DNA of 20,536 bases from a virus. Numbering within the stretch: the stretch's first letter is position 1; each line of letters opens with the position of its first letter. The notes below the pieces were generated by a model, which saw only the letters and a list, made by a program, of their open reading frames with translations, was not told where the DNA came from and did no database searches. The stretch covers positions 1-20,536 of IMG/VR virus record IMGVR_UViG_3300030109_003974; one strand, 5' to 3'. The position numbers were made by a program, and so were the translations under genes. Of the stretch, positions 11,055-20,141 are shown piece after piece.

Positions 11055-14000
11055 ATGGCAAACGTCAAGATTTCGGACCTGACGGCATACGTCGATCCGG
11101 CCAGTTCAGATATTTTGCCGATTGTCGATTTGGTGAACGACGTTACCAAGAAGGTGACGATTGCGGATTTATTGGAAAATGCAGGGGATGGCAGCGCTGC
11201 TGCACCTGCGTTTGCATTTAATTCTGATAGCAATACTGGTATTTATAGAAGTGGTGCAGATGAGCTGAGCTTTGCGACGGCTGGAACGCAACGGCTTGTT
11301 ATTGATAGCAGCGGGAATGTCTCTGTTGGTGGCAGCAACGTTGTAACTGTAGGAGATACTGGAACGGTCACAAGCACGATGATTCTTGACGGGACAATCG
11401 TCAATGCTGACATTAATTCCGCTGCAGCTATTGCTCTAAACAAATTGGCAAGTGGAGCACTACCTTCCACAATTACTATAGGATCATCAAATATTGTGAA
11501 TGGCACTATTGTAGATGCCGATATTAGTACATCTGCTGCTATAAGCCTGAGTAAACTTTCTTCAGGAGCACTACCGTCGAATATCACTGTTACATCGTCA
11601 AATATCTCTGATCTGTCTATCGTCAACGCTGATGTTAACGCATCTGCAGCGATCGCTGGTACTAAAGTAAGTCCTAATTTTGGTAGTCAGAATGTATTGA
11701 CGACTGGAAATTGTGGGATTGGCACTACGAGTCCAGTTAGAGCACTACAAATCGGAACACACGGTTCAGGTAATGGTGAAATGGCTCTTGCCTCTTCCAC
11801 TACCGGCAATTGTAGTATTTTGATGGGTGATGGAGCAAGTGGAAGTGACTTTTATAGAGGTTATATTCAGTATCAAAATAATACGGATTCTTTGGTATTT
11901 GCTACGGCTACTACACAGAGGATGGCAATCGACAGCTCGGGCAATCTAAACGTAGGTACGACAGGAGTTAACAACAATTTCCGCCTTAATGTTAAAGCAC
12001 CGTCTGGGAATGGTGGCATTGCGTTTGTACCAGCTACGGATGGAGCAACCGTTCCTGTTATTCGTATGCTTAATGCTGCGATAAGCGCTAATGTTGCAGA
12101 GATTGGTACAGTTTCCGGAAATCATTTCTATATATCTACAGGTGCAAGTGAGCGACTCAGAATCGATTCAAGTGGCAACGCCACGTTTACTGCAGACGCA
12201 ACCATCAACTCACTAACGATTGGCCGTGGTGCGGGTAACGTTTCAAGTAATACGGTGGTTGGTAGTAGTGCTCTGAATGCAAACACCAATGGTACTTTCA
12301 ACGCAGCTGTAGGATTAAATGCTCTCTCTTCTAATACCGGAGGTGATTACAACACGGCTATCGGTGGAGATAGCCCCCTCGGTGCAAACACCACAGGTAA
12401 TTACAACACAGCTGTCGGGGCAGGTTCCCTCAAGGCGAACACCACTGGCTCTCTCAACACAGCTAGCGGACTCAACTCTCTTCGATTAAACACTACTGGT
12501 TCTAGAAACACAGCCACCGGACGACAAGCTCTTTATTCCAATACCACTGCTAGTGATAATACAGCTAGCGGTCATCAAGCTCTTTATTCCAATACAACTG
12601 GTGCTAGTAACACAGCTAGCGGATCCAGTGCTCTCTATTCTAATACCACTGGTGGTAACAACACTGCTAGCGGAGTAAACGCTCTTACATCAAACACCAC
12701 TGCTGATAACAATACAGCTTACGGGATAGGTTCTCTTTATTCAAATACCACTGCTTCTAACAACACAGCCCACGGTTTTAAAGCTCTCTATTCCAATACT
12801 ACAGGTACTTTCAATACATCCATTGGGATGCAATCTCTTTATACTAACACCACTGGTAGTTATAACTCAGCTAGTGGAATGTATGCGCTGTATTACAGCA
12901 CCACTGGTACTAATAATACGGCTACCGGATTTCAAGCTCTGTATACCAACACTACTGGCGGTGGCAATACAGCTAACGGGAAAAGTGCTCTACAGCAAAA
13001 CACTACGGGTACTCTTAACACAGCTATAGGGTATCAAGCTTTAGTCCTCAACTCCACTGGCTCTAGTAATGTAGCAAGCGGGGTCAATGCTCTTTATAGC
13101 AACACTACTGGTGATAAAAACGTAGCAAGTGGGTATCAGGCACTCTTTACAAATTCCACTGGTAGTTACAACGTAGCTGTTGGAAATGAAGCACTAACTC
13201 TAAACACTACAGCATCTGAAAATACTGCAGTTGGCAATAAAGCTTTAAAAAGTAACACGACAGGCGCTAGTAATACAGCACAAGGTGCTGGTGCGCTTCA
13301 TACGAACACCACTGGTGCTTACAACACAGCAAACGGTTACCATGCTCTCTTTTCCAACACCACTGGCGGTAATAATACAGCCGTTGGAAGACAAGCTCTC
13401 TTAAGCAACACCACTGCGAGTGGTAACACAGCTACTGGATACAATTCGCTTGCTTTAAACACCACTGGCGGTAACAACACAGCCTTTGGATTTGAAGGTT
13501 TAATCAGCAATACCACTGGTGCTTACAACACAGCTACTGGATACCAAGCTCTTTATAACAACACCACTGGTCATAGCAACGTAGCTAACGGGTACCAAGC
13601 TCTTGCTTTAAACTCCACTGGTTATAGCAACACAGCTAGCGGATATCAAGCTCTTTATAACAACACCACGGGTCAAGGCAACACTGCTGCCGGGGAAAAT
13701 TCTCTTCTTTCTAATACCACTGGTGTTGAAAACACAGCCACTGGCATACAATCTCTACGTTTCAACACAACTGGTACTGAAAACGTAGCAAGCGGATATA
13801 ACGCTTTGCGTGTCAATACAACTGGGAACTACAACGTTGCATACGGGGCAAGAGCCTTATATAGCAACACCACTGCCAGCAATAATGTAGCTGTCGGATA
13901 TTTTGCACTCTATTCCAACACCACGGGTTATCACAACGTAGCCAACGGAGTCAGTGCTCTTCGTTTTAACACCACTGGTACTAATAATACAGCCTGCGGG

Positions 14001-14897
14001 TTTCAAGCTCTTTACTCCAACACTTCTGGCGGAGATAACTCAGCCTACGGGATGGATGCACTCTTACTCAACACTACTGGTAATTACAATACAGCTGCAG
14101 GATGGAGGGCTCTTCGTAGTAACAGCACTGGTAATTCAAACGTAGCTACTGGATATCAGGCCCTTTTTGGCAACACCACTGGTATTAATAACACAGCTAC
14201 TGGATTAAATTCTCTCCTCAACAACACCACTGGAAACAACAATGTAGCTAACGGATTAGACGCTCTTCGTAACAACACCACTGGTGCTAGTAATGTAGCC
14301 CTCGGATACCAAGCCCTCTATTCAAACACTACTAGCAATACAAACACAGCTATTGGAAGAGATACTCTCTATAACAACACCACTGGTACAGCTAATGTAG
14401 CCCTCGGATACTCAGCTATGGTCTCAAACACCACTGGATCCGGTAATATTGGCATTGGTTTTATAAGCAGCAATGGGTCTTATGGACCAGTGTTTGCCAC
14501 AACAACAGAAAACAACCGTCTAGCTTTAGGTCATACATCAATCACTAATGCCTACGTCAAAGTATCTTGGACCGTTACATCAGATGAACGCGATAAGATG
14601 AACTTTGCTCCAGTACCGTATGGTCTGGACTTTGTTAATCAACTCAAGCCAACTGCCTATCAGTTCAAGGTAGATCGTGACACTGAAACACCAGATGGTG
14701 ATGTACGTTATGGATTCAAAGCGCAAGACATCCTTGCCTTAGAAGGTGACAACCCAGTCATCATTGACACCGAAGACGCTGATCACCTCAAATACAAAGG
14801 TGAGCATCTGGTTCCTGTGCTGGTAAATGCCGTACAAGAGTTGACGGCTATGGTTAAAGAGTTGCAGAATGAGGTCGCTGCGCTGAAGAGCGCGTAG
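11055..14897 (+). CDS. Giant repetitive tail fibre protein with peptidase S74 chaperone
   Basis: This 1280-residue fibre has several sections. Residues 1-90 share the N-terminal module of the upstream fibre gene (KISDLTAY...DILPIVDLV, then SNTGIYRSGADELSF). Residues about 95-215 contain three degenerate copies of a GTIVNADINSAAAIALNKL-like motif common in marine phage fibres. Residues about 215-400 are beta-rich with IDSSGN repeats. Residues 410-1124 are 42 tandem units of about 17 residues with consensus NTTGxxNTAxGxxALxx, which suggests a long trimeric beta-helix shaft like adhesin stalks. An S74 self-cleaving chaperone starts at Ser1176 (S-D-E-R-D-K-M-N), with GFKAQDI and a closing coiled coil (LTAMVKELQNEVAAL). 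It probably forms the main side or central fibre. Receptor unknown; the fold of the shaft is inferred from the repeat. Confidence 0.9.
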   Translation: MANVKISDLTAYVDPASSDILPIVDLVNDVTKKVTIADLLENAGDGSAAAPAFAFNSDSNTGIYRSGADELSFATAGTQRLVIDSSGNVSVGGSNVVTVGDTGTVTSTMILDGTIVNADINSAAAIALNKLASGALPSTITIGSSNIVNGTIVDADISTSAAISLSKLSSGALPSNITVTSSNISDLSIVNADVNASAAIAGTKVSPNFGSQNVLTTGNCGIGTTSPVRALQIGTHGSGNGEMALASSTTGNCSILMGDGASGSDFYRGYIQYQNNTDSLVFATATTQRMAIDSSGNLNVGTTGVNNNFRLNVKAPSGNGGIAFVPATDGATVPVIRMLNAAISANVAEIGTVSGNHFYISTGASERLRIDSSGNATFTADATINSLTIGRGAGNVSSNTVVGSSALNANTNGTFNAAVGLNALSSNTGGDYNTAIGGDSPLGANTTGNYNTAVGAGSLKANTTGSLNTASGLNSLRLNTTGSRNTATGRQALYSNTTASDNTASGHQALYSNTTGASNTASGSSALYSNTTGGNNTASGVNALTSNTTADNNTAYGIGSLYSNTTASNNTAHGFKALYSNTTGTFNTSIGMQSLYTNTTGSYNSASGMYALYYSTTGTNNTATGFQALYTNTTGGGNTANGKSALQQNTTGTLNTAIGYQALVLNSTGSSNVASGVNALYSNTTGDKNVASGYQALFTNSTGSYNVAVGNEALTLNTTASENTAVGNKALKSNTTGASNTAQGAGALHTNTTGAYNTANGYHALFSNTTGGNNTAVGRQALLSNTTASGNTATGYNSLALNTTGGNNTAFGFEGLISNTTGAYNTATGYQALYNNTTGHSNVANGYQALALNSTGYSNTASGYQALYNNTTGQGNTAAGENSLLSNTTGVENTATGIQSLRFNTTGTENVASGYNALRVNTTGNYNVAYGARALYSNTTASNNVAVGYFALYSNTTGYHNVANGVSALRFNTTGTNNTACGFQALYSNTSGGDNSAYGMDALLLNTTGNYNTAAGWRALRSNSTGNSNVATGYQALFGNTTGINNTATGLNSLLNNTTGNNNVANGLDALRNNTTGASNVALGYQALYSNTTSNTNTAIGRDTLYNNTTGTANVALGYSAMVSNTTGSGNIGIGFISSNGSYGPVFATTTENNRLALGHTSITNAYVKVSWTVTSDERDKMNFAPVPYGLDFVNQLKPTAYQFKVDRDTETPDGDVRYGFKAQDILALEGDNPVIIDTEDADHLKYKGEHLVPVLVNAVQELTAMVKELQNEVAALKSA
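12282..14426 (+). repeat. Coding tandem repeat: 42 units of 51 bp (one of 54 bp)
   Basis: The array runs in frame from the AAC codon at 12282 to the AAC at 14427, which is 2145 bp, equal to 42 x 51 + 3. The one 54-bp unit is near the start (NTGGDYNTAIGGDSPLGA). Each unit encodes NTTGxxNTAxGxxALxx; a degenerate 43rd unit (NTTGSGNIGIGF) follows at 14427. The positions Asn1, Thr2, Thr3, Asn7, Gly11 and Leu15 are the most constant. The DNA is much more variable than the protein (all four Thr codons occur), though neighbouring units share longer identical stretches. Confidence 0.95.
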
Positions 14898-15742: not shown

Positions 15743-16099
15743 ATGATCAAAGCATTCGCAGTAGCTGTTTCTGGTGTTCTCGCTGGTTCAGCTGCCTTGG
15801 CAGGCCCTTATGTCAACGTAGAGAATAACGGCGGTTATTCGGGCGGAGATTACGCCGGATCTGTAACAGATTTCCACGTTGGTTTTGAAGGTTCTGACGG
15901 CGTTTACGGTTACTACCTGCAGGGCGGTCCAGCCTTGGTTGCTCCTGACGGTGGCGATTCTGAGTTTGAACTGTCCGGCAAAGTTGGCGGAAACGTCCAA
16001 GTAGCCCAAAACGTTGGCATCTATGGCGAGCTGAGCTTCATCACTGCAGAAGATGATCCTTCTGTTGGAACCAAGCTTGGCGTGAAGTGGGCTTTCTGA
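15743..16099 (+). CDS. Secreted small outer-membrane-protein-like protein
   Basis: The 118-residue product starts with a clear signal peptide (MIKAFAVAVSGVLAGSAALA, predicted cleavage after residue 20 before GPYVNVE). The mature 98 residues are a series of alternating hydrophobic/polar strands rich in Gly and Tyr: VTDFHVGFEG, VYGYYLQGGP, SGKVGGNVQV, VGIYGELSF and KLGVKWAF. It ends in phenylalanine as outer membrane beta-barrel proteins do. Only about six strands fit, fewer than the eight of the smallest classical barrels, so it may oligomerise or sit on the cell surface or periplasm in another way. It could be a moron that alters the host envelope during infection. It is flanked by gaps and closed by a terminator, consistent with its own transcription unit. 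The secretion call is strong; the barrel and role are inference. Confidence 0.82.
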   Translation: MIKAFAVAVSGVLAGSAALAGPYVNVENNGGYSGGDYAGSVTDFHVGFEGSDGVYGYYLQGGPALVAPDGGDSEFELSGKVGGNVQVAQNVGIYGELSFITAEDDPSVGTKLGVKWAF

Positions 16100-16178: not shown

Positions 16179-16430
16179 ATGCAAAAAGTTTTTAACCTGC
16201 TCGGCGCTACAGCATTTCTGATGTCTGGAGCAATGGTTGTTGGAACGTTGGTGCTTTACACCAGGATCCCATCACTGACGAAGTATTACATGAGTGAGCT
16301 AAAGCTTGAGCTAACCAAGCTCGTCACTGACATGGTGCCAGGTCAGATTGATGACGTGATGCCTGAACTGCCAACAGCAACAGGCCCTGTCATTGAGCCT
16401 GCATTCGAGCTACCTAAGTCACCGTTCTAA
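16179..16430 (+). CDS. Small membrane protein, function unknown
   Basis: This 83-residue protein has one hydrophobic segment at about 5-27 (LLGATAFLMSGAMVVGTLVLY), then a charged amphipathic region (IPSLTKYYMSELKLELTKLV) and a Pro-rich end. It resembles small membrane proteins of marine cyanophages by general form. It stops at TAA TAG, and the next gene begins at once in the same frame, so the two are physically linked and may once have been one gene. Membrane placement is clear; function is not. Confidence 0.7.
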   Translation: MQKVFNLLGATAFLMSGAMVVGTLVLYTRIPSLTKYYMSELKLELTKLVTDMVPGQIDDVMPELPTATGPVIEPAFELPKSPF

Positions 16431-16433
16431 TAG

Positions 16434-17189
16434 GTGCCTGAAATACCTGAGATTGGTGTGGGACGTATTGGCGTTCCAGAAATACCCACGTGGAGAAGTA
16501 TCCCGCCGCAAAGCATTCCGCAAGAACCGCCAATCACTTTGATGCTGGGTTTTCCGGTTGCGGAAATACCTGGCTGTGTTGAGACACGCAATACTCAACC
16601 TGGGAATGCAGATGCTTATACGACAGACCCAAAGGGCAACTTTGTTGTCTGTGACGGAACGATGCCATCGTTTCCTGCTGCATTGGACTTTACGCCTGGC
16701 ACGTTGACTTATGGATCAGCCAAGCCGCCAGCAATAAACCCAAAAGAAAAACCGGCAGCCTCCCAGCAACCGGTAAAGTCCCCTCCGCCAGCAGCTGCAC
16801 CTGCTGACATTTCAAATTTAGACACGGAACTGCCATGTCCGCCACCAGACGCAATACCTATTGGAGCTAAAAATAAGCTTCAGACTGCTGTCATAACTGG
16901 CTATAAGCGTGTCGATGGAGAATGTAAACCGCAATTCAAATCGTTGGACATACCAGCGATTCTCGGCAACCACTTACCTGGCTCGCCTGTTGTGGTCACG
17001 ACTGCAACGATTGCGGTTGTCGCAACAACAGCGGCAGTTCTAGCCAAACCATTAGGCGATATTTTGCTGAAGGTGATCAAGCCTCTTGTCAAAAAGACGA
17101 TCAAGAAGATTAAGGAGAAGCTTGGGAAGAAGACTGTTGTTGAGTCAGCTTGGCAGCGTCGGAAGTTTCAGCGTTCTTTGAAGAAGTAG
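16434..17189 (+). CDS. Proline-rich protein with C-terminal membrane segment and basic tail
   Basis: The 251 residues start at GTG 16434, right after the double stop of the upstream gene; no Shine-Dalgarno sequence is visible and reinitiation is likely. It has a Pro-rich N-terminus with PEIP-type repeats and a segment EIPGCVETR. A PSFPAALDFTPGTLTYG block at about 78-94 and a Pro/Ala/Lys linker (98-140) follow. A small domain near 148-180 contains AVITGYKRVDGECKPQ. A hydrophobic stretch at 185-205 leads into a strongly basic amphipathic tail (about 213-251; repeated K-K-x-x-K-K). Cysteines are at 48, 73, 135 and 164. I recall similar proteins in marine cyanophages but know no function. The last 80 nt overlap the convergent gene on the other strand. 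Confidence 0.75.
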   Translation: MPEIPEIGVGRIGVPEIPTWRSIPPQSIPQEPPITLMLGFPVAEIPGCVETRNTQPGNADAYTTDPKGNFVVCDGTMPSFPAALDFTPGTLTYGSAKPPAINPKEKPAASQQPVKSPPPAAAPADISNLDTELPCPPPDAIPIGAKNKLQTAVITGYKRVDGECKPQFKSLDIPAILGNHLPGSPVVVTTATIAVVATTAAVLAKPLGDILLKVIKPLVKKTIKKIKEKLGKKTVVESAWQRRKFQRSLKK

Positions 17190-17841
17190 GGATTGAATGT
17201 GTGTGGGGCGGCAAGACACCAGGCGGATTAACTAAGACGACATCGGCACAGATCTTGCTGTAGGGCGACCTGCGGTGAAAACTGATGCCCTTTTGCATTA
17301 GTTCAGCGCAATTTTTAAGTCTTGCAAGCTCGTAGTTAAGCCTTTTATCAGCCAAGGCTGCTTCCATCAACTCGACTTGCTTTTCTGCTGCTTTGCGGCA
17401 AGTGCGGATATGACTGCGATCTAGTGGGATTGAGATCTGTGCAGTGATGCCGCCATTGACTGAGAAATTTGTCTTCTGCCCTGTCCTTACTGGTTTTCTG
17501 AAAAGCACGCGACCAGGATTGTCTGGTCTGCCATCTGGAACGGGATTGCCTTCTGGATCAAACGCACCAGTAATGTCAAGCGTGTCATAGACAGGCTCGT
17601 TGTAATAGCGTTCATACGGATCAGACCAGCCAGTGGTTGAACTAAGAAAAGGGTTAATCGTCAAGCTTGCCCCTTGGCAGCTAACGCCGTTAATCACAGA
17701 GCTAAAAGTGCTGCTCGGGACCACCTGCACGGATTGATTCGTCACTGAGCCCGAACTATTCGCAACGGGGGCTGCTGTACTACTAACCTGAGCATTTACC
17801 GGCCCAGTGAATAACAGCAAAGCTGCTAGGACACGCTTCAT
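17110..17841 (-). CDS. Exported protein with four cysteines, function unknown
   Basis: This 243-residue product begins with a signal peptide (MKRVLAALLLFTGPVNAQ). The mature part opens with a low-complexity Ser/Thr/Val stretch and then QVVPSSTFSSVINGVSCQG and a Tyr-rich segment (SDPYERYYNEPVYD). A beta region follows, and then a helical section with probable coiled-coil character (about 147-185). The tail is Ser/Gln-rich. Exactly four cysteines are present (55, 148, 178, 198), so two disulfides are possible after export. It is the last gene of a four-gene operon and overlaps the preceding gene by 4 nt (ATGA). Its 3' end overlaps the convergent proline-rich gene by 80 nt. From memory it resembles cyanophage hypothetical proteins; role unknown. 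Confidence 0.8.
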   Translation of the reverse strand: MKRVLAALLLFTGPVNAQVSSTAAPVANSSGSVTNQSVQVVPSSTFSSVINGVSCQGASLTINPFLSSTTGWSDPYERYYNEPVYDTLDITGAFDPEGNPVPDGRPDNPGRVLFRKPVRTGQKTNFSVNGGITAQISIPLDRSHIRTCRKAAEKQVELMEAALADKRLNYELARLKNCAELMQKGISFHRRSPYSKICADVVLVNPPGVLPPHTHSIPTSSKNAETSDAAKLTQQQSSSQASP

Positions 17842-18257
17842 TGGGTAAAGGTGCTGGTGGTTTCTGTAAGTGATTCGATGTCAGTCTCTCTATTTATGAT
17901 CGTGTGATTTGTAAGCCCTGGTCCAGAAAGAGTCTCAACTATGGAGAAAGCAGCGCCTGGCTTAACGATGCTCCATGTTGGTCTAGATGCAGGATCAAGT
18001 CCAGTCCACTTGCTTGAAACACCGTTCAATGTATTGGTGGTAGTCGTCAAGCTTTGTGGAGCAAGCCCGCCAGAAGGCTGAATATTTGTGCCGCTAGCTG
18101 TGTATTCATAACCCGTGCGATATTCGTAAGAGTTAATGACTTCAATAACCTTTGATGTTGTCTTTGTTGTGCTGGAAAGTGTTCCTTGCTGAAAGTTAGG
18201 AACGATTGGTACGGCTGCCGCTGGGGCAGCCAAAAGCAACAACAGCAGGATTTTCAC
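17838..18257 (-). CDS. Exported protein, function unknown
   Basis: The 139-residue protein starts at GTG (codon 18257-18255), overlapping the preceding stop by 4 nt (GTGA). The start MKILLLLLLAAPAAA is a short signal peptide. The mature part is rich in Ser, Thr and Asn with alternating beta-strand pattern (KTTSKVIEVINSYEYRTGYEY) and a TWSIVKPGAAFSIVETLSGPG segment. It has no cysteines and no domain I can name. It is part of the four-gene exported-protein operon, so it probably acts with its neighbours in the periplasm or at the cell surface, or on the virion. Confidence 0.78.
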   Translation of the reverse strand: MKILLLLLLAAPAAAVPIVPNFQQGTLSSTTKTTSKVIEVINSYEYRTGYEYTASGTNIQPSGGLAPQSLTTTTNTLNGVSSKWTGLDPASRPTWSIVKPGAAFSIVETLSGPGLTNHTIINRETDIESLTETTSTFTQ

Positions 18258-18685
18258 TTGATAGTTAGCTCCTGAATAACTTGGCCAATTGCCGTAGTGC
18301 CAGCACCACCAGCCGTAATTGCTAATGCACCATCTGTAGCAATTGTCCCCGCCAGAGTGCCTGCTACACCGCCTGCAGTTGTTGTTGTGTTTCCAAATAT
18401 AGGTAGTGCTGGAACGACACCTGCCGTAACAGTTGTTGAAAGTACGGCCGGAACGTCATCACCTTCTATGTACGACTCTGAATACGAAAAGCTGTCACCA
18501 GCAGTAGTAATACTGTAAGCACCAGGAGTGTACCCAAGAGCAGTCCCGGAAGTAAGTGTCCCCAGCACAGGAGGAGTACCATCAACAGTTAGTGAAATTG
18601 AAGACTTGATAGCGTGCGTAATGTCTGCCGAAGCAGGACTTATCGCAAAGAATGTTAGGCACGATACAAAGAGAAAACGTCTCAT
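18254..18685 (-). CDS. Exported protein, function unknown
   Basis: This 143-residue product has a signal peptide (MRRFLFVSCLTFFAISPASA) with a likely cleavage before DITHAIKSS. The mature part starts with a strand (SISLTVDG). It then contains many small residues (Gly, Ala, Thr, Val) and an acidic, aromatic patch (SFSYSESYIEGDD). The C-terminal third is Gly/Ala/Thr-rich and low in charge, as in fibre-forming or surface-layer-like proteins, but no family is recognised. It overlaps its neighbours by 4 nt on both sides. It is the second gene of the operon. Confidence 0.78.
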   Translation of the reverse strand: MRRFLFVSCLTFFAISPASADITHAIKSSISLTVDGTPPVLGTLTSGTALGYTPGAYSITTAGDSFSYSESYIEGDDVPAVLSTTVTAGVVPALPIFGNTTTTAGGVAGTLAGTIATDGALAITAGGAGTTAIGQVIQELTIK

Positions 18686-18951
18686 TTGGGTTTAGACGTA
18701 GTGGGTGTTTGTTCTGCGATTGTAGGCGGCTCATCTTTTTTCTTGCCATTGGCGCGTTTAATGTTGACGCCAAAGCTGGTCATGGTTCCAGTAAGCAAGG
18801 AAGCAGGGAATGTTGGGTCCATGGCTTTGACATAGCCCAGGTAGTTAAGGCTGAGCATCACAATCGACCATGTCAAAACAGCCAGTTTTACAAAATCCGC
18901 CAAAGCTGTTGATTCTGGTTCGTGCTCCTGCTTAACCTGTTCTTCTGCCAT
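18682..18951 (-). CDS. Small membrane protein, holin candidate
   Basis: The 89-residue protein has an acidic N-terminus, a hydrophobic helix at about 19-40 (ADFVKLAVLTWSIVMLSLNYL), and a second weaker hydrophobic stretch at 47-64 (TFPASLLTGTMTSFGVNI). A hydrophilic Lys/Pro/Thr tail with AANGKKKD-like charge closes it. Size, one or two membrane helices and a charged tail fit phage holins. The DPTFPASLLTGT segment resembles holin-like proteins I recall from phages and prophages. It is the first gene of the minus-strand operon, divergent from other small membrane proteins and a peptidase. The holin role is inferred from form and context only. Confidence 0.72.
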   Translation of the reverse strand: MAEEQVKQEHEPESTALADFVKLAVLTWSIVMLSLNYLGYVKAMDPTFPASLLTGTMTSFGVNIKRANGKKKDEPPTIAEQTPTTSKPK

Positions 18952-18974: not shown

Positions 18975-19229
18975 ATGGTGGTTGAAATCTGGGCTGCTGT
19001 TGCTGGTGCGTCTATAGGCGTGGCTGCTTCTGGTATCAAAGGTGCCAGCCGTGAGACACAGCATGGAAGAGATTCTTTGGTACGCCTCACGAGTGCTGTC
19101 GATAATTTAGCGTCACGAATGGATGTGCTCCACGCTGATCTGAGGGTTAGGGACCAGGAGCTATTCGCTCGAATCTCAGACCTAGAGCAGAATGTTGCAC
19201 GACTGGAAGGACACGCGAATCGGACTTAG
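18975..19229 (+). CDS. Small membrane-anchored coiled-coil protein
   Basis: This 84-residue protein has an N-terminal hydrophobic helix (about 4-22, IWAAVAGASIGVAASGI) and then a long charged helix with heptad pattern (LVRLTSAVDNLASRMDVLHADL, continuing through ISDLEQNVARLE). That is an inner-membrane anchor followed by a coiled coil, the shape of an inner-membrane spanin or a small assembly factor. It begins 23 nt from the divergent holin-like gene. It leads into two further small genes and the C39 peptidase, which suits a lysis cassette. Function not proven. Confidence 0.72.
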   Translation: MVVEIWAAVAGASIGVAASGIKGASRETQHGRDSLVRLTSAVDNLASRMDVLHADLRVRDQELFARISDLEQNVARLEGHANRT

Positions 19230-19253: not shown

Positions 19254-19427
19254 ATGGTTTTACTTCTAAAGCCAATTCTGTTCAGCTTCATCAAATCAAA
19301 GGCTGTAAAACAGCTGCTGATGGACTGTCTGATCAAGATCAGCGAGCAAACTGACAACCAATTAGATGACGTTGCTTGCAAATATGTGCAAGACCTACTC
19401 TTTCCTGGAGAGCGCGTTGAAAAGTAA
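19254..19427 (+). CDS. Small (57 aa) conserved phage protein
   Basis: ATG 19254 to TAA 19425-19427 encodes MVLLLKPILFSFIKSKAVKQ and then a helical, charged region with DCLIKISEQTDNQLDDVACK and LLFPGERVEK. The N-terminal 13 residues are hydrophobic and followed by lysines. The pattern (hydrophobic start, K-S-K-A-V-K, T-D-N-x-x-D-D, L-F-P-G-E) resembles short proteins next to lysis genes in marine cyanophages, as far as I recall. It fills the gap between its neighbours and abuts the next ATG without any spacer. Function unknown. Confidence 0.68.
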   Translation: MVLLLKPILFSFIKSKAVKQLLMDCLIKISEQTDNQLDDVACKYVQDLLFPGERVEK

Positions 19428-20141
19428 ATGTGGGTTTGGGTCATAGTTGTGCTTTCGCTCCTCCCCTTCTTTCAGTTCTTTAAAAAAGGCGATCCCCATC
19501 AATTGGCTGCGATTGCAGAGCTGGAAAAGTCCATTGACCAAGATCTACTTAACGACGAGGCCGAATGGTTTGAGATGTGGAAAACAAGCGGCATCCACCA
19601 AGAGGTTTATGGCGTTCCGTATTACAACCAACTAGATAGCCTTACTGGCTATGGCTACCGGGAATGCTTTGACTCTGCTGCCGCAATGGTTGCTGCGTTT
19701 CACCGAGCTGTTCAAAGCCAAGGCGCTTACAGAAAAGTGCGTCGAAAGCACGGCGACACTACAGAGGTTCATGCTCAAGTGTCTGCGTTGAGATCGCTTG
19801 GATTAGATGCCGAGTTTCGTCAAAACGTAAGAGTGGAGGACATCGAGATTGAGATCGATGCCGGGAGACCTCTGATGGCCGGTTGGCTGCATAAAGGCGA
19901 TTTTACTAAAGGCAATCCAGCAGTGTGCAACAGCGAAGGATGTGGCCATTGGAGCGTAATTATTGGCTACGACAAGGATGATTTCATTGCCATGGACCCT
20001 ATGGGCAAGCCAAATATGGAGCATGGCGGCCATGACACCACCAAGTCTGGTGAGTTGATCAGAATGTCGCGCCATGCTTTTTACCAACGATTTTTAATCG
20101 AGGGTGAAGCAAGTGGCTGGGCCATATTTGTCGATCGATGA
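19428..20141 (+). CDS. Membrane-anchored C39-family-like cysteine peptidase, endolysin candidate
   Basis: The 237-residue protein starts with a hydrophobic segment (residues 2-18, WVWVIVVLSLLPFFQFF), then KK and a charged linker. The rest is a C39-like papain-fold peptidase (PF13529 type). It has YYNQLDS before the active site, GYRECFDSAAAM with Cys80, GCGHWSVIIGYDKDD with His174, and the aspartate in IAMDPMG (Asp190). The order Cys, His, Asp fits a catalytic triad. Such peptidases in phages can cut peptidoglycan cross-links or process proteins. The N-terminal helix could be an inner-membrane anchor or a signal-arrest-release segment. With nearby holin-like and coiled-coil membrane proteins it is the best endolysin candidate here. 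The stop overlaps the next start (ATGA). Confidence 0.82.
   Translation: MWVWVIVVLSLLPFFQFFKKGDPHQLAAIAELEKSIDQDLLNDEAEWFEMWKTSGIHQEVYGVPYYNQLDSLTGYGYRECFDSAAAMVAAFHRAVQSQGAYRKVRRKHGDTTEVHAQVSALRSLGLDAEFRQNVRVEDIEIEIDAGRPLMAGWLHKGDFTKGNPAVCNSEGCGHWSVIIGYDKDDFIAMDPMGKPNMEHGGHDTTKSGELIRMSRHAFYQRFLIEGEASGWAIFVDR

Follow-up and report, generated by a model that had tools for sequence, protein, structure and literature searches.

What do four overlapping genes do that run against the strand of a virus's tail genes, three of them encoding exported proteins and one a predicted membrane protein? The window in which they lie (the whole stretch of DNA that was analysed, bases 1-20536 of a 23,193-base virus record) carries on its plus strand a lambda-like tail module from the tape measure on, with fibre genes and a Phage_OMP gene last. 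The minus-strand genes are designated A to D and their plus-strand neighbours E to J (Table 1).

Table 1. Position and predicted features of the genes in and around the minus-strand block.
Feature	Position	Strand	Description
Fibre gene	11055-14897		1280 aa, probable fibre with chaperone tail; dozens of tandem units N.TASG..AL..NTTG, S74-like C-terminal region
G	15743-16099	plus	Pfam Phage_OMP, cyanophage outer-membrane beta barrel
F	16179-16430	plus	83 aa, one N-terminal TM, Pro-rich tail; phrog_568, labelled 'plasmid stability'
E	16434-17189	plus	gp164 family, T4-GC 234, phrog_570; Pro-rich, four Cys
D	17841-17110	minus	243 aa, signal peptide, beta-rich then long helix; gp165 family, T4-GC 235, phrog_848/phrog_1755
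C	18257-17838	minus	139 aa, GTG start, signal peptide, Ser/Thr-rich beta protein; DUF6322, phrog_650
B	18685-18254	minus	143 aa, signal peptide, Gly/Ala/Thr-rich beta protein; phrog_564
A	18951-18682	minus	89 aa, small predicted inner-membrane protein, holin-like hairpin; DUF6450, phrog_21865, phrog_721
H	18975-19229	plus	phrog_26178; N-terminal TM and coiled coil
I	19254-19427	plus	57 aa, phrog_2738
J	19428-20141	plus	C39-like cysteine peptidase, N-terminal hydrophobic segment; PHROG 'endolysin' family

Gene content of the locus

As an earlier note on this DNA had reported, the four minus-strand genes overlap by exactly 4 nt at each of the three junctions (A/B, B/C and C/D). Their median dN/dS against relatives of 70-97% protein identity was about 0.1 (A 0.08, B 0.11, C 0.09, D 0.11), indicating strong purifying selection and open reading frames that are not due to chance. 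The signal peptides that the note had assigned to B, C and D, alongside a membrane partner A, were confirmed by inspection, with cleavage between MRRFLFVSCLTFFAISPASA and D in B, between MKILLLLLLAAPAAA and V in C, and between MKRVLAALLLFTGPVNA and Q in D; they are kept in relatives, and inspection found no lipobox Cys at any of the three cleavage sites, as in ordinary signal peptides. The residue compositions given for B and C and the four Cys of D were also as claimed. In D, these residues (Cys 55, 148, 178 and 198) were invariant across 74 aligned relatives, and the predicted structure places a 42-residue helix at 142-183. The hydrophobicity of A comprised one strong segment and a weaker second one, and two TM regions are noted in GenBank for its P-SSP7 homologue; the motif DPTF.AS..TG....FG is conserved in A and is followed by a Lys-rich tail. 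The C-terminal end of C is likewise conserved (T.S.F.Q). The statement that these proteins have no known domains stood only in part: C matched DUF6322 (E 2e-36) and A matched DUF6450 (E 2e-12) in Pfam, and all four matched PHROG families, every one of them of unknown function.

Two further features concern variation at the locus. Compared with almost all relatives (e.g. L012), the window's B is short of about 22 residues near 'SISLTVDG/TPPVLG'; the deletion is in frame and is either a real variant or an assembly effect. Each close relative carried an A of one of two kinds, sharing either about 90% or about 52% identity with that of the window, against 75-95% for the genes on either side, suggesting that A is swapped by recombination.

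On the facing strand, E possessed one TM near its C-terminus followed by a strongly cationic tail. It is convergent with D, the two 3' ends overlapping by 80 nt on opposite strands (17110-17189); a convergent overlap or close abutment of D and E was seen again in T7-like and T4-like relatives. On the other side, H is divergent from A across a 23-bp gap, and in the window and its close relatives A-D adjoin the endolysin-like J with I and H in between. The I family adjoins A or D in T7-like cyanophages too. By its sequence J is a candidate endolysin, homologous to P-SS2 gp098, which is annotated as similar to the putative lysozyme of S-PM2.

Relationship and predicted structure of the exported proteins

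Profile comparison of B with C gave a probability of 95.4% (E 1.7e-8) over about 60 columns, and the two matched each other's profile in many loci with E values of 1e-3 to 1e-6; on these sequence comparisons B and C are distant paralogues. D showed no relationship to either. The AlphaFold2 model of D (mean pLDDT 70, pTM 0.33) was beta-rich with its helix confidently predicted, and that of B, based on a full-length relative (L047), was all-beta (pLDDT 71, pTM 0.37). No sequence relatives of B, C or D were found in the PDB, and Foldseek against the PDB, run with these weak models, gave best E values of 0.23 and 1.7 with no fold assigned. Against viral models, confident matches fell in the same cyanophage family only, reaching P-SSP10, P-SSP3 and S-RIP1.

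This paralogy brings up one reading in which the exported proteins would construct or alter the infected cell's surface. B and C, as related subunits of two kinds, would form a polymer with D as its anchor, which would keep further phages or released progeny from adsorbing or would change how cells contact each other; other genes would lyse the cell. In its favour, B and C are repetitive, paralogous beta proteins whose C-terminal strands are conserved, as in two-subunit fibres, and the linked G is an outer-membrane barrel; known pilus or adhesin folds, on the other hand, were unmatched. We regard this as a plausible alternative, though not one to be relied on.

Conservation and spread of the cassette

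Gene order was essentially fixed across 80 close viral loci, with J-I-H pointing away from A-B-C-D and E-F-G convergent with it; the linkage of G to the cassette was frequent, not constant. Over 232 loci, distant ones included, the arrangement of B-C-D facing E was nearly invariant, and A either headed B-C-D (sipho and Oinezvirus types) or stood on the facing strand after F (T4-like). These 232 loci had been found with C or D, and the test was redone with E or A as independent bait. D, C and B were all present in 66/66 loci with room when E was the only bait, and B, C and D in 46/59 when A was, the loci partly overlapping so that these counts are not fully independent. The view that the four genes are one conserved unit was borne out by all three sets of loci. 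As for their occurring independently of each other, which the earlier note had named as the contrary case, B, C, D and E did not do so; A, which in S-TIM5 lies distant from the remaining cassette genes, is a looser member of a core made of B, C, D and E.

Translated searches over 50,697 phage records, at E values up to 1 where the last few matches may be noise, matched A in 458 records, D in 451, C in 412 and B in 206. Almost all were Synechococcus or Prochlorococcus phages, the named hosts being marine picocyanobacteria. The cassette was present in lambda-like, T7-like and T4-like marine cyanophages (more than 400 phage records), and at least about 600 viral contigs carried these proteins. 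Its occurrence with three tail types suggests that its role is tied to the host they have in common, not to one kind of tail. A, B, C and D were all absent from the Syn5 and P-SS2 genomes, and S-PM2 is reported to lack the cluster (PMC3037559); the cassette is therefore common, yet dispensable in some lineages.

A host origin was considered and rejected. Eight loci were found in the genome collection, mostly on small MAG contigs and all but two in the ordinary phage order, and we take them to be phage DNA that binning placed with hosts, not host genes. Cyanophage sequence also appeared under the labels Nonlabens, Formosa, Lewinella and Euryarchaeota (L237, L236, L232-L235), probably through binning or sample contamination.

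Correspondence with a published gene cluster

The earlier note had singled out these genes as an undescribed system, which does not hold: a 'mobile hypothetical gene cluster' of T4-like cyanophages, comprising T4-GCs 218, 219, 234, 235 and 237 and a 'plasmid stability' gene, was published in 2010 (Sullivan et al. 2010, PMC3037559). Through the annotations of Syn1 and S-SM1, A corresponds to GC218, B to GC237, C to GC236, D to GC235, E to GC234 and F to the 'plasmid stability' gene (GC414), GC236 standing beside the published cluster list. Homologues of T4-GCs 218, 234, 235 and 237 were all present at the window's locus, so that A-D make up most of a published cassette; GC219 had no counterpart in the interval between E and F of the window. 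The T4-like cluster shares with the window the order B-C-D facing E, and differs in that A heads the B-C-D operon in the window and lies on the facing strand in T4-like phages, and that the J-I-H block is attached in the window. The window's locus is thus a further carrier, in a sipho-type phage, of a cassette whose function has gone unexplained since its publication. The full-text literature searched, mostly outside the subscription journals, yielded no functional paper on it, and in the papers available we did not find its spread across morphotypes, its late promoters, the B-C paralogy or its placement in the T7 slot described below.

The label on F raises the published suggestion of a mobile element with a plasmid-stability function, in which the other genes would be passengers. 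F aligned with genes that are annotated as 'plasmid stability' in Syn1, S-SM1 and P-RSM6, and the genome position of the cluster is variable (PMC3037559, PMC9602691). F itself, however, is a small, Pro-rich, one-TM protein that gave no Pfam match, and plasmid stability was rejected as its literal function; the label, which recurs in the cyanophage literature, looks like an annotation error. The nearly invariant order and orientation of B-C-D and E, together with the functional constraint implied by the low dN/dS, also count against passengers, and we consider this explanation most improbable.

Promoters and timing

Among T4-like relatives, the late-promoter core TAAATA occurred 18-50 nt before B in 37/60 distinct upstream regions without A, compared with a mean of 3.7 and a maximum of 13 in first-order resamples, which leave the relatedness of the sequences in. 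In 32/47 cases it also preceded A, with which the facing operon begins. The controls gave 0/60 for C and 0/58 for D, internal starts that share the same relatedness, and 2/50 for E and 1/37 for F. Cyanomyoviruses have NATAAATA as their published late promoter (PMC2984593), and a promoter of the NATAAATA type about 30 nt upstream, as found in the T4-like relatives, marks T4-type late genes. As this promoter type heads both facing operons, both strands are late in these relatives, which runs counter to the suggestion that the strand switch reflects separate timing. In sipho-type loci with A upstream, the window's type, the T4 late motif was found before B in 0/93, and a sigma-70 scan of the window gave no promoter for A above chance; late timing in the window's phage is what its T4-like relatives suggest.

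Late expression is compatible with remodelling of the cell surface, and would also suit virion components such as accessory proteins of the tail tip, a role for which the fibre and tail genes nearby in podoviruses and in the window could be cited too. Signal peptides would nevertheless route B, C and D away from assembly in the cytoplasm, which makes a virion role less likely, and a single cassette shared by three unrelated tail types would be hard to fit into the virion. In S-TIM5, moreover, the annotation labels B, C, D and E hypothetical and their neighbours virion structural. We judge a place in the virion decidedly unlikely.

Genome position and comparison with lysis modules

In P-SSP7, tail fibre gp17 and the genes accompanying it are followed in turn by 042 (E-like), 043 (A), 044 (C), 045 (D), an I homologue and the small terminase, with matches of 043 to A at E 2e-25, 044 to C at E 7e-11, 045 to D at E 2e-26 and I at E 2e-16, and 042 linked to E through phrog_9426. 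The I homologue (phrog_2738) is a small unannotated gene between 045 and 046 (L391:39183-39341). The E-like, A, C and D homologues form one block as in the window's cassette; P-SSP7 differs in having no B, E on the same strand, a shorter D and a site between the tail fibre and terminase genes. D of S-TIP37 lies in the same slot, between fibre and packaging genes, and in P-SCSP1s I, A, a C-like gene, D and an E-like gene adjoin the large terminase. In coliphage T7, the corresponding slot contains the holin gene 17.5, and the spanin genes 18.5 and 18.7 precede the large terminase.

The lysis modules of lambda and T7 (holin, endolysin and Rz/Rz1 spanins) resemble the cassette in combining a small membrane protein, an endolysin-like neighbour and envelope-directed proteins, with the T7 slot in common. 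They differ from it in that no sequence similarity was detectable and that the cassette encodes three Sec-exported, soluble-looking proteins with no lipoprotein identified. The size of A and its TM count (89 aa, one strong and one weak segment) fit the 1-3 TM of holins, although A matched no known holin family, only DUF6450 and PHROGs of unknown function; a search for T4 holin T gave no match, and neither did its control, so that this search carries no weight. Rz-type spanins were found in 0/12 cyanophage genomes with a control that worked, and for H the PHROG spanin match was no more than weak (E 0.1). On sequence grounds, calling A a holin or B-D spanins fails at the family level.

A proposed late module acting on the envelope

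A late, exported and fixed block of genes, found with three tail types in one host group and in or beside lysis positions, is most simply read as a late envelope module. A-B-C-D with the facing E and F would be the sipho-type copy of a late cassette common to the three tail types, acting on the picocyanobacterial envelope at the end of infection, most likely in lysis or exit. We put this explanation first, tentatively and short of an even chance, and the earlier note's proposal of lysis or envelope remodelling stays a best guess.

From these observations we infer a mechanism in which A would form a holin-like hairpin in the inner membrane, peptidoglycan would be cut by the adjacent peptidase J, and the Sec-exported paralogues B and C would assemble with D, as a disulphide-bearing protein of beta strands and a helix, in the periplasm or outer membrane, where the three would open or weaken the outer membrane. 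In coliphages, opening the outer membrane is the job of spanins. The reading as lysis or exit draws on the position in the T7 holin slot in P-SSP7 and on J adjoining the block in the window, and is supported by the lack of Rz-type spanins in the 12 genomes.

Several points weigh against lysis. No enzyme, holin or spanin family was recognised in A-D, the second TM of A is weak, and the structure models, themselves weak, resemble no solved structure. S-PM2, Syn5 and P-SS2, which lack the cassette, presumably still lyse their hosts, and in T4-like genomes the cassette does not adjoin a J-type peptidase. Late exported proteins would also be explained by surface-remodelling functions, and a role in surface remodelling or exclusion is nearly as likely as one in lysis or exit; the T7-slot position and the neighbourhood of J nonetheless favour lysis, and a surface coat needs no holin-like partner.

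Implications for cyanophage biology

With the late promoters, the position in the T7 holin slot and the near-invariant linkage, what had been a set of hypothetical genes becomes a module that can be tested, and S-TIP37, a T7-like carrier of D, has been used in published genetic engineering of cyanophages (PMC8776855). Little is known of the way in which marine cyanophages get through the envelope of Prochlorococcus and Synechococcus, although the lysis of these hosts matters for ocean carbon flow. It is a more specific and unlikely proposition that cyanophages of three tail types share a spanin-independent system for opening the outer membrane, made of the secreted paralogues B and C and the Cys-rich D and triggered together with the holin-like A. 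If true, it would be a new kind of exit machinery for phages of Gram-negative hosts, adapted to picocyanobacteria.
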